From Gammaproteobacteria bacterium (GTDB taxonomy: Bacteria; Pseudomonadota; Gammaproteobacteria; UWMA-0217): a stretch of 36,132 nucleotides of DNA. The notes beneath the pieces were generated by a model. It did not search any database and had not been told where the DNA came from. It was given only the letters and a program-made list of their open reading frames with translations. Of this stretch, positions 1,994 to 18,815 are shown one piece after another. The DNA lies in assembly GCA_027081275.1 (NCBI GenBank), contig JALWKV010000236.1:1-36132 (forward strand), in the 5' to 3' direction. How positions within the stretch are numbered: the first letter of the stretch is position 1; each line of letters opens with the position of its first letter. A program made the translations under genes and the position numbers.

Positions 1994-2403
1994 TCTGGGA
2001 ATGCGTGGGCGGTAATTTTCATTTCGCTTGGAAACACGGCGCTATCGATATTCCCGTAGGCCCGGTCGGTGCGTGGAACGCACCCTACCTGCCGAATCCC
2101 CCTCGGTCCCCCTTTGGAAGAGGTTACCGCAAAAGCCCTCTCCCCATAGGGGAGACGACTGCATGGATGCAGGAGGTAGGGCGACGCAGGAAGCCAAAGC
2201 CGAGGGTTTGGGAGAGGGGGTAAACCATTGTTTTTCACCCTCTCCCCGGCCCTCTCCCTCAAGGGAGAGGGAGATTTGCGACGCCCTTAGGAAAAGGGGG
2301 AAGACAGCCTCCCTCTCATAAAGGTTTGGAGGGATGAATGCCTCGGTATCAGCAGTAAATGTTGTCACGTGGTCAGCGTATCGAGTTCAAGTTATGTGGA
2401 AGC
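1994..2403. repeat. hypB-hoxA intergenic region made of dispersed repeats R2 and R3
   Basis: No gene was found in this 410-bp gap. Positions about 2122-2288 are a copy of repeat R2, with alternating CCCTCTCCC and GGGAGAGGG blocks. On the minus strand it matches the copy inside hupJ (5163-5312) closely, including the block that reads GAGGGTGAAAAAC then TTTACCCCCTCTCCCAAACC. It carries about 45 extra bases compared with that copy. Positions about 2291-2356 are module R3. Its 19 bases at 2328-2346 are identical, in reverse complement, to 18187-18205. The block separates hypB from hoxA and may weaken readthrough or add a processing site, which is inference. Confidence 0.7.
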
Positions 2404-3611: not shown

Positions 3612-4791
3612 TGATCGGACTCCAGCGACTGTCGATGGTCAGGGCATAGTCGACACAAGGGTCGATGGCGTGGATCAGCAATTCCGCCTCCTTTTCCAGA
3701 CTGACGTCGCCATCGTCCCGCAGGTTTTCCAGCCCCCTGGCGGCAACGCCTTGCGGGTGGAAATTCCACTCCGTCGGCGCCAGCACCAGCAGTCGCTCGA
3801 TGCGTTCCCCCTCCAGCTCGACCAGATGCGTCAGCCGCCCTCGCGCCGCCTCGGTGTGCGCCATGCCGGGCACCATCGAAGCGGGTGGCGCCAACACTTC
3901 GCCGCGCAGAAAAAAATCGTCGAGTCTTGCCATGGTTTCCGCCAGCGCCACCAGCCGCGCCGCGCAACGGGTGAAAATGCCGTTACCGTAACGCCGCAAC
4001 AGCTCGGCCACCAGCGGCCGTGTCGCCACGCCACGGAACCAGCTCATGTCATACGGACTGCCGCGCCACTCCGGTTGCGCGGTAAATGCCTGCCCCTCGC
4101 GACACAGGCGCTGCGCCAGCGCCGCATCATCCACAGCCGGGGGTGGCGTGACCGCCGAGGCGCCGGCATGACGCCAAGGCTGCAGCCACAACCAGTCGAG
4201 AAACCGGGCCGCGACCGTATCGCTCTCGACGGTCCAGTGCCGCAGCGCCGCGATCGAAGCACCGTCGCGCGCCAGCCATGCCGTGGCGGCATTGGAAAAG
4301 AGCATTTCCTGCACCAGCTCCGCCAACGTCTGCCACTGCTCTGTGTGCCACGGCAAAAGGGCTTGCCGCGCGCCCCCGACCGCAAACAGCCTTTCCGGAT
4401 GCAGCGCATCGGCGAGCGCCACCGTCCGCCTGAGCACGGTGGCCAGCGGTTGCTGCATTGCGTCAGCGTCGTCGCCGAGCAGTCGCGGCCAGTCGAGCAG
4501 AATGCGCAGCAACTGCTCGCGCAGGCTTTCCAGCAGCACCAACGCCTCCCGCTGCGACGCCACGGTCACCGACACTTCGCGCATCTGCGCGCTTTCGACG
4601 GCGCGGACCAGAGACGAGGCCTGCGCCCGCGCGCAGACATTGAACAACAGCGGCACGGTGTTGATCGCCATCGCCACCGGCTTTCCGGAAAAAACGCCGG
4701 CGGCGGCCAGTGGCCGGGTGGAGACGATATTGCAGCGCAGGCCGGTTCGAGCACGCCGCAACGTTATTTGCAATTGTCCGGCCGGGATCAT
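3604..4791 (-). CDS. hupK: HupK/HoxV, hydrogenase large-subunit-like maturation scaffold
   Basis: 395 aa. HupK/HoxV proteins are shortened relatives of the hydrogenase large subunit and are thought to act as a scaffold or carrier for the Fe(CN)2CO group. Both cysteine motifs of the catalytic subunit appear in degenerate form: LLFNVCARAQ (C53) in place of RxCGxC, and AIDPCVDY (C379) in place of DPCxxCxxH, keeping the DPC but losing the second Cys and His. It cannot therefore hold a complete NiFe site. The start overlaps the hupJ stop in an ATGA. The order hupJ-hupK-hypA-hypB matches known uptake-hydrogenase clusters. Confidence 0.9.
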   Translation of the reverse strand: MIPAGQLQITLRRARTGLRCNIVSTRPLAAAGVFSGKPVAMAINTVPLLFNVCARAQASSLVRAVESAQMREVSVTVASQREALVLLESLREQLLRILLDWPRLLGDDADAMQQPLATVLRRTVALADALHPERLFAVGGARQALLPWHTEQWQTLAELVQEMLFSNAATAWLARDGASIAALRHWTVESDTVAARFLDWLWLQPWRHAGASAVTPPPAVDDAALAQRLCREGQAFTAQPEWRGSPYDMSWFRGVATRPLVAELLRRYGNGIFTRCAARLVALAETMARLDDFFLRGEVLAPPASMVPGMAHTEAARGRLTHLVELEGERIERLLVLAPTEWNFHPQGVAARGLENLRDDGDVSLEKEAELLIHAIDPCVDYALTIDSRWSPINA

Positions 4792-5513
4792 GGTTCGCGA
4801 TCCCGCCGCTCGGAGAAAACGCCGCCACGCAGAAATGCCCGCCGCGACATCGGCTCGGCCAGCCGTTGTTGCAGCGGCTTTTTCGCCTGCTCGCTCCCCT
4901 CTTCCGCCGGCGGCGTCTCTCCCTTCCAGATGGCTTCAACCTCGCGCTCGCGCCGCTGCGAGGCGGCGTCGAAATTCTCCTCGTCCATGATCGCGGCCAA
5001 CGCCGCTTCGGCTGTCCGCTCCGCCGCCTCCTGTGATTCGAATTCGAATACCGGCGAAAAGAGCGAGCAGGAATAGTAGTGGCCGACGCCTTCCTCATGC
5101 CCGGCAACGAAATCGTAGCTGCCCGACGGAAACACGAAGGTCCGCGCCGCGCCGACCGGCACCTCGTCACTTCCCCCCTCTCGCGGCTGTCGCAAAAGCG
5201 ATGATTGAGCTCCCTCTCCCTTGAGGGAGAAGGCTGGGGAGAGGGTGAAAAACGATTGTTTACCCCCTCTCCCAAACCCTCTCCCCGGTGGGGAGAGGGC
5301 TTTTGTGGGAGCCTCCTCTTGCGGCAGCAGCATCAGGTTCATGAACCAGGGCGTGAGGAGAATGCCGAGCCAGTGCTCGCGCCAGGGCCGAAAGCCGATG
5401 GCGCGGACAGCGAGCTTGTCATTGACGACGGGAACGCCGGTCATGCGCGTTCGCTCGATTTGGCGGAAGCGATGTTCCAGAGTGGTTGCGACGTCGCCGG
5501 CCGAGGAGAACAT
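4788..5513 (-). CDS. hupJ: HupJ/HoxT (HybE-family hydrogenase assembly chaperone) carrying an in-frame repeat insertion
   Basis: 241 aa from ATG 5513, which has GAGG about 10 nt upstream. HybE/HoxT family signatures are RFRQIERTRMTGVPVVND (15-32), GILLTPWFMNLMLLP (50-64), FVFPSGSYDFVAGHEEG (126-142) and YYSCSLFSPVFEFES (146-160). The family acts in maturation of the small and large subunits of membrane uptake hydrogenases. Between LLPQEEAPT and VPVGAARTF there are 47 residues (about 71-117) encoded by a copy of dispersed repeat R2; homologues normally run straight through here. The 141 nt is a multiple of three and has no stop. The C-terminal tail holds MSRRAFLRGG (222-231), which looks like a twin-arginine motif but is in the wrong place for a signal peptide. 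The inserted loop may or may not be tolerated. Confidence 0.85.
   Translation of the reverse strand: MFSSAGDVATTLEHRFRQIERTRMTGVPVVNDKLAVRAIGFRPWREHWLGILLTPWFMNLMLLPQEEAPTKALSPPGRGFGRGGKQSFFTLSPAFSLKGEGAQSSLLRQPREGGSDEVPVGAARTFVFPSGSYDFVAGHEEGVGHYYSCSLFSPVFEFESQEAAERTAEAALAAIMDEENFDAASQRREREVEAIWKGETPPAEEGSEQAKKPLQQRLAEPMSRRAFLRGGVFSERRDREP
5163..5312. repeat. Repeat R2, copy inside hupJ
   Basis: The element is made of alternating CCCTCTCCC and GGGAGAGGG blocks bounded by GGCTGTCGCAAAAGC on the left (about 5175) and GGGCTTTTGTGGGAGCC on the right (about 5312). It matches the R2 copy at 2122-2288 in reverse complement and partly matches 18250-18286. Its left edge resembles the terminal repeat of R1. 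On the hupJ coding strand one frame is free of stops, so the protein continues through it. Confidence 0.8.
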
Positions 5514-6680: not shown

Positions 6681-6845
6681 GGAGGGTGTCGCAAAAGTCC
6701 GTCCAGGACTTTGCGACACACGAAAAGGAAAAAGTGCGATTTTTCCTTTTCTCACAGAAACAACGACTTATTGTCGTTGTTTCTGGCAGCACATCCTTGT
6801 GCTGCGCGAGGTTGCCGCAAAGCTACCGCTTTTGCGACAACCTCC
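6681..6845. repeat. Repeat R1 copy 1: MITE-like element with hairpins
   Basis: 165 bp bounded by terminal inverted repeats, GGAGGGTGTCGCAAAA at the left and TTTTGCGACAACCTCC at the right (15 of 16 pair). The inverted similarity extends outward through a CCC(T/C)TCCCC block. Inside are consecutive hairpins: GTCC/GGAC; AAAAGGAAAAA/TTTTTCCTTTT; a perfect 13-bp stem at 6755-6767/6773-6785 (CAGAAACAACGAC, loop TTATT); and a perfect 8-bp stem GCAGCACA/TGTGCTGC at 6786-6805. It carries no gene. It lies between hupG and hupH, so the hairpins fall inside the operon transcript. A second full copy is at 15482-15648. Confidence 0.88.
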
Positions 6846-11914: not shown

Positions 11915-12086
11915 GTAACTGCTCAGATTGCCTCTGAAATCCGTCAGTTCAAGGCACAATCGCATCGCCATCCATGGCTCCATGCGAAATACAGTCCATC
12001 CGTGGACATAAATGTGAGTTTACAAGTGTAAATGACCATTTTCGAACGCAGAAATGGCGGATTCCGGGGACGAGCTGAGTAGTTAC
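11915..12086. repeat. Repeat R4 copy A: 172-bp MITE-like element
   Basis: Bounded by GTAACTGCTCAG (11915-11926) and CTGAGTAGTTAC (12075-12086), 11 of 12 pairing. The interior matches 18638-18815 along its length, including TCAGTTCAAGGCA, the palindrome GTCCATCCGTGGAC, an AT-rich tract and a stem CCATTT/AAATGG. A further single end, GTAACTACTCAG, is at 11885-11896. The element ends 28 bp before the SPOR gene start, so it forms that gene's whole upstream region. The rest of 11833-12114 holds no gene. Confidence 0.85.
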
Positions 12087-15481: not shown

Positions 15482-15648
15482 GGAGGCTGTCGCAAAGCCC
15501 ATCCAGGACCTTGCGACACACGAAAAAGGAAAAAGTGCGATTTTTTCTTTTCTTACAGAAACAACGACTTATCATCGTTGTTTCTGTCAGCATATCCTTG
15601 TGCTGCGCGAGGTTGCGGCAAAAGCTACCGCTTTTTGCGACAACCTCT
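15482..15648. repeat. Repeat R1 copy 2
   Basis: A full copy of the element at 6681-6845, in the same orientation, 167 bp. The ends are GGAGGCTGTCGCAAAG and TTTTGCGACAACCTCT. The central hairpin is kept as ACAGAAACAACGA / TCGTTGTTTCTGT with a changed loop. It again lies between co-directional genes, after the coiled-coil gene and before leuA. Differences from copy 1 are scattered and fall in loops as well as stems. Confidence 0.88.
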
Positions 15649-18186: not shown

Positions 18187-18286
18187 CCGAGGCATTCATC
18201 CCTCCAAGCCTCCCTTCGGGGAGGCTTTCTTCCCCCTTTTCCAGAAGGTGCGCAAAAGCCCTCTCCTCCGCCCTCTCCCTCAAGGA
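18187..18286. repeat. Repeat block with R3 and partial R2, including a UUCG hairpin
   Basis: Positions 18187-18205 are the reverse complement of 2328-2346 over 19 bases. AAGCCTCCC / GGGAGGCTT (18206-18214 and 18219-18227) closes a TTCG tetraloop and is followed by TCTTCCCCCTTTT, which could act as a weak plus-strand terminator. R2-like CCCTCTCC blocks follow to about 18286. The same order, R3 next to R2, occurs at 2122-2356. Confidence 0.7.
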
Positions 18287-18637
18287 CTGACCTTTACCCA
18301 TAAATCCGCTGGACACCGGGAGGGCTTCGACCGGTGAACACCAGGTAGGCTGCGGTGATGTCATCGAGCCGTTGCAGGCCCAGCAATAAAGAAGTAGGCC
18401 CGATCAAGCCGTAGCGGACCGGGCAACGGCGCGACTTCGTGGCAACACTGCTGCCGGTTCCGCTGCGCTTGAACCGGCCTCCAACGCCTTCTCCCTCGTG
18501 GGAGAGCGTTTTGCGACACCCTCCCAAGGGGGGATTGAGGGGGATGCAGCAACGGAACTTCGTGGCGATGCCGTTGCTTTTATGCTATGGACGCGCGGCA
18601 GCGGGCTGGGGCGCCGAGTAGTTTCGGAAATATGCCC

Positions 18638-18815
18638 GCAACTGCTCAGATTACCCCTGAAATGCGTCAGTTCAAGGCAGAATCGCACCGTCATCCATGG
18701 CTCCTTGCGCAATACAGTCCATCCATGGACATAAATGTGCGTTTACAAATGTAAATAAATAACCATTTTCAACCGCAGAAATGGTGCGGATTTCAAAGAT
18801 GAGCTGAGCAGTTGC
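18638..18815. repeat. Repeat R4 copy B
   Basis: 178 bp with perfect 12-bp terminal inverted repeats GCAACTGCTCAG (18638-18649) and CTGAGCAGTTGC (18804-18815). The interior matches copy A (11915-12086) along its length. An extra AAATAAAT tract gives the length difference. Stems ACCATTT/AAATGGT and GTCCATCCATGGAC are kept. It ends 66 bp before the deacetylase gene. Confidence 0.87.

Follow-up and report, generated by a model that had tools for sequence, protein, structure and literature searches.

How a conserved hydrogenase assembly gene can hold a dispersed repeat and still present an open reading frame is the question raised by hupJ, which lies at 4788..5513 on the minus strand of the window (the whole stretch of 36,132 nucleotides analysed here). 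Rickettsia is the best-known source of in-frame mobile repeats in conserved genes, and other organisms provide scattered examples. The gene encodes a HybE-family [NiFe]-hydrogenase assembly chaperone of 241 amino acids, including a 46-residue insert, and belongs to a minus-strand hup/hyp operon in which Pfam identifies HupH_C, rubredoxin, HybE, NiFeSe_Hases-like, HypA and CobW/HypB. HybE homology was detected on both flanks of the insert, in two stretches (PF11939, E=4e-46), and the only significant PDB fold match of HupJ was E. coli HybE (2kc5, E=6.6e-6, TM 0.62 on the target). The preliminary description of this DNA had proposed that a dispersed repeat, R2, sits in frame within hupJ, and this was confirmed by 52 BLAST matches genome-wide and by relatives lacking the insert.

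The repeat had been recognised correctly but positioned at 5163-5312; the element itself spans 5183..5315 on the minus strand, measures 133 bp and differs from the R2 consensus by ~14%. It is bounded by a left terminal inverted repeat, GAGGCTCCCACAAAA (5301..5315, minus strand, three changes relative to GAGGNTGTCGCAAAA), and a right terminal inverted repeat, TTTTGCGACAGCCGC (5183..5197, minus strand, one change). Adjoining these ends on the same strand are the two copies of a 5-bp target duplication, the 5′ copy reading AAGAG on the coding strand (5316..5320) and the 3′ copy GAGAG (5178..5182), identical at four of five positions. The 133-bp element and one 5-mer lengthen hupJ by 138 bp net, corresponding to 46 codons (~47 residues had been estimated), a multiple of three that leaves the frame open, as had been claimed. 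The insert comprises residues 67-112 of HupJ, with predicted junction peptides LLPQEEAPTK and EGGSDEVPVGAAR, and removal of the 133+5 bp yields an uninterrupted frame, LLPQEGGSDEVPVG, with a normal HybE loop. Compared with the intergenic copy in the window, the hupJ copy is 94% identical over 72 nt and 85% identical over 39 nt; its right arm carries a 12-bp extra segment that is absent from the other R2 copies aligned.

Aligned genome copies of R2 gave a consensus of the form GAGGNTGTCGCAAAAGCCCTCTCCCC...GGGAGAGGG..., ending in TTTTGCGACANCCTC, with a usual length of 121 bp; among about 46 copies examined, those in which both ends are clear range from 109 to 178 bp. The element has the 15-bp terminal inverted repeat GAGGNTGTCGCAAAA at both ends, two CCCTCTCCC hairpins and no transposase. 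Its core motif was found at 53 places in the genome and its end motif GAGGNTGTCGCAAAA at 158, compared with two for a reversed-pattern control, while perfect hairpins of the form CCCTCTCCC-N(3-6)-GGGAGAGGG numbered 78 genome-wide and zero in the control. In the fetched stretches, exact 5-bp duplications flanked 32 pairs of terminal inverted repeats, compared with an expectation of 0.6 when the flanks were shifted as a control. Being short, in the MITE range of about 50-400 bp, multi-copy and dispersed, with terminal inverted repeats and a target-site duplication, R2 displays hallmarks of MITEs and is a MITE-like non-autonomous element. A search of the assembly for DDE_Tnp_1 proteins, the one transposase family searched, returned none, and pairs of terminal inverted repeats spaced 0.7-2.4 kb apart gave no convincing insertion sequence that could be an autonomous partner; draft assemblies frequently lose full-length transposable elements, which bears on the missing R2 transposase. 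In genomes G002 and G003, many contig ends have R2-hairpin-like repeats no more than tens of bases away, which suggests that larger repeats break these two assemblies there.

The preliminary description had also asked how often R2 falls inside genes in frame. Genes were called with a home-made three-periodic Markov caller trained on the genome's own long frames. Of the ~46 R2 copies placed, four lie within genes, in frame and stop-free, one extends a C-terminus and the rest are intergenic, a count in which R2 copies that break a gene would appear among the intergenic ones, since the caller requires an open frame, and in which same-strand neighbour pairs were only partly compared with homologues. 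Because called coding density is 81% in the fetched, repeat-rich stretches and most copies are intergenic, R2 is strongly depleted from genes. Besides hupJ, the R2-bearing genes encode a DEAD-box helicase (Pfam DEAD 3.6e-45, Helicase_C 2.7e-27), a DUF4347 protein (2.9e-48) and a GH123-like protein, whose Pfam matches fall slightly under the curated cut-offs. Exact target duplications flank the elements in the GH123-like gene (TTGTA, net insertion 126 bp) and in the DUF4347 gene (TCGGA, net insertion 165 bp, element 160 bp); the helicase insert amounts to ~55 codons and its target duplication is not recognisable. R2 is read in three different reading frames among the four genes, and the copies within them are 14-16% off the consensus, yet open in the frame used. 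At L158:2445-4061, a 538-amino acid protein without a Pfam match apparently ends in R2-encoded residues, the frame running through the element to a stop codon directly past it.

The orthologues of all four R2-bearing genes in G001, a genome of the same genus whose hupJ locus matches JALSHZ010000118.1 (Gammaproteobacteria MAG) without a difference in the stretch compared, were without the insert. The G001 hupJ shows a 3-nt gap opposite ~45 extra residues of the R2-bearing genome and the helicase a 3-nt gap opposite 56 unmatched query residues, while the DUF4347 protein has 10 residues at the insertion site compared with 70, and the GH123-like protein is shorter at the corresponding position. 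An alignment of HybE homologues, proposed earlier as a check on the repeat, extended this comparison for hupJ: the insert was absent from all 11 homologues compared, and an equally long loop was present at the site in 0/11, and a native long HybE loop was rejected on these grounds. With four in-frame cases in a genome unrelated to Rickettsia, each paired with an empty same-genus orthologue, how well proteins tolerate selfish loops can be tested directly.

We next consider what the insert may mean for the protein. In the AlphaFold model of HupJ (12 aligned sequences), the mean pLDDT of 10-residue blocks is mostly 91-98 before the insert and ~88-97 directly after it, and residues 79-113 fall below 50, between strands 58-64 and 123-128. 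In the helicase model, residues 293-344 fall below 50, with helix 277-288 on one side and strand 349-352 on the other. AlphaFold places both inserts as disordered loops within confidently folded cores. It had been suggested that the chaperone may still fold, the loop lying between conserved strands; the location of the loop stands, and folding is supported by structure prediction. The conserved HybE residues are retained on both sides of the insert, and comparison of hupJ with its G001 orthologue gave a dN of 0.38 and a dS of 2.17, a ratio that integrates time before the insertion. Sequence conservation and modelled structure together suggest that the R2-bearing HupJ is likely functional.

Taken together, these observations are very probably explained by transposition of a selfish MITE, R2, into hupJ, where it was frame-neutral, became a tolerated loop and passed a passive filter imposed by selection. 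A transposase acting in trans, which would recognise GAGGNTGTCGCAAAA and generate the 5-bp target duplication, presumably mobilised R2, and one copy would have entered hupJ, the simplest timing being after divergence from the insert-free sister species. Because element and duplication add 138 bp and the frame entered is stop-free, the ribosome should read through R2, and HupJ would thereby gain a 46-residue disordered loop between two core strands. The insertion was probably kept as a frame-neutral event in a tolerant loop; one that broke the frame would harm hupJ itself and probably the genes downstream of it. The same kind of insertion would have happened at least three more times in the R2-bearing genome. 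R2 has common lengths of 121, 130 and 163 bp, which with the 5-bp duplication are multiples of three, and its consensus is open in ~4/6 frames when one right-end base is set to match the more frequent end motif TTTTGCGACA. Owing to these two properties, rare insertions in tolerant loops may survive selection, while most insertions within genes would be lost. That the R2 segment is translated, that the chaperone still works and that selection acted as the filter are what we infer from this pattern. Counting against this explanation are the imperfect duplication at hupJ (4/5), the lack of a recognisable one in the helicase gene and the failure to find a transposase.

Two other accounts of the hupJ locus were weighed against transposition into a tolerant loop. 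In the first, the insertion crippled HupJ: hupJ would be a weak allele or a pseudogene in slow decay, its frame open by recent accident. The predicted disorder of the insert fits this account, and for a young insertion an open frame would be weak evidence of function, a simulated neutral gene of 723 bp remaining stop-free with a probability of 0.27 at 5% divergence. At 10-14% neutral divergence, however, this probability falls to 0.04-0.08, and the hupJ copy looks old, being 14% off the consensus with a target duplication that has already changed, although part of the 14% predates the insertion and the age is thus an upper bound. The conserved HybE residues on either side and the intact neighbouring hup/hyp genes also speak against a decaying gene, and we regard crippling of HupJ as improbable. 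The second account, that the repeat was misjoined into hupJ in a draft metagenome bin, draws on the state of the whole-genome assembly, a draft of 297 contigs in which repeats are prone to misassembly. Nevertheless, the HybE halves flank R2 in the correct order, frame and spacing, a target duplication is recognisable, none of the other aligned copies showed the 12-bp extra segment of the right arm, and the in-frame pattern recurs in three further genes; the chance that the locus is an artefact appears very slim, and a misjoin at hupJ unlikely from the sequence itself.

A further possibility concerns the family as a whole: R2 and its sister families may have been selected for frame neutrality (lengths of 1 mod 3, stop-free frames) and so represent a second, independently evolved group of RPE-like coding MITEs. 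The main length classes (121, 130, 163, 169 and 178 bp) all become multiples of three on addition of the 5-bp duplication, and this would also accommodate a consensus open in most frames. Yet only 4 of ~46 R2 copies are in genes, the 163-bp family is equally frame-neutral in length with 0 examined copies in genes, and the 152-bp spacing of the common paired ends in G001 is not frame-neutral. Nor did a strict rule of three bases hold for the length of the elements: outside the 163-bp class, 12 of 22 elements with exact duplications are 1 mod 3, a weak excess that was counted post hoc. Selection of the family for residence in genes is therefore doubtful, and we retain passive filtering of a selfish element as the preferred explanation.

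Several known repeat families invite comparison with R2. The preliminary description likened it to the Rickettsia elements. These RPEs are described as dispersed palindromic repeats of ~150 bp found in frame in unrelated genes (Ogata 2000, 2002, summarised in PMC10969869), with nearly half of those in R. conorii reported within genes (PMC10969869). Both kinds of element lie in frame in unrelated genes and add a peptide of some tens of residues, whereas R2 has 4/~46 copies in genes, 15-bp terminal inverted repeats, 5-bp duplications and a gammaproteobacterial host. Thus the in-frame outcome of the likeness was upheld, R2 residing in frame in four genes, and the share of copies within genes was not, nor is the host a Rickettsia; by this analogy the resemblance is one of outcome, with R2 set apart by host and ends. 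The enterobacterial ERIC/RU-1, YPAL/RU-2 and RU-3 elements are MITE-like, 103-168 bp long and mostly intergenic, with open frames and some in-frame fusions (PMC2759123). By their descriptions, they and R2 are both MITE-like and mostly intergenic but differ in host group and lengths, and among the R2 cases are conserved single-domain genes that each have an insert-free orthologue in the same genus. In-frame copies in genes are less striking in the enterobacterial repeats and the Coxiella QMITEs than in Rickettsia. QMITE1 and QMITE2 of Coxiella burnetii, present in ~50 copies each with some overlapping genes, are likewise gammaproteobacterial MITE families, but measure 300-400 and 150-190 bp and have duplications of 2-3 or 7-11 nt (PMC5896051).

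Hairpins of the CCCTCTCCC type also occur in many copies in other bacteria (e.g. on Azospirillum plasmids), where they are ~40 bp long and mostly 87-93% identical to the R2 hairpin. None of the plasmid records covers 80% of R2, the terminal inverted repeats being largely uncovered, and the two Azospirillum hairpin overlaps with annotated genes that were inspected are both near gene ends. No description of the R2 family or its in-frame cases was found in the literature searched, and a query with the repeat sequence listed papers that were all unrelated. R2 behaves much as RPEs and ERIC copies in genes do, but on the basis of host and ends we treat it as a MITE family of its own, of a kind already known. 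For annotation, these cases advise caution, as an annotated protein segment like SPPGRGFGRGG or PSPLRERAGERV can stem from mobile DNA that is read through.

Finally, R2-type sequences were located elsewhere in the window. The non-coding copy previously noted at 2122-2288 was found at 2120..2288 on the plus strand, between hypB and a sigma-54 regulator gene; it is 169 bp long and contains a 48-bp insert in its left hairpin. This 48-bp segment, CGACTGCATGGATGCAGGAGGTAGGGCGACGCAGGAAGCCAAAGCCGA (2156-2203), recurs in several other R2 copies (L027 and L028; reversed in L029) and is apparently a nested sub-element. The partial copy reported near 18250 was also recovered, the interval 18209-18523 holding an R2 copy that is both truncated and degenerate, together with a single isolated R2-type end. 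In addition, a second MITE family of 163 bp shares the 15-bp ends of R2 and its 5-bp duplication and has many further copies in the genome. In the window it is represented by two intergenic elements on the plus strand, one of 163 bp at 6682..6844 with the exact target duplication CACCG and one of 165 bp at 15483..15647 with the exact target duplication TGAAG. Other genomes also hold such end pairs, spaced 163 bp in G003 and 152 bp in G001. Known RNA families gave no match in the window at gathering thresholds. A 117-bp direct repeat without R2 ends is present at 11917-12033 and 18640-18756, its two copies being 91% identical.
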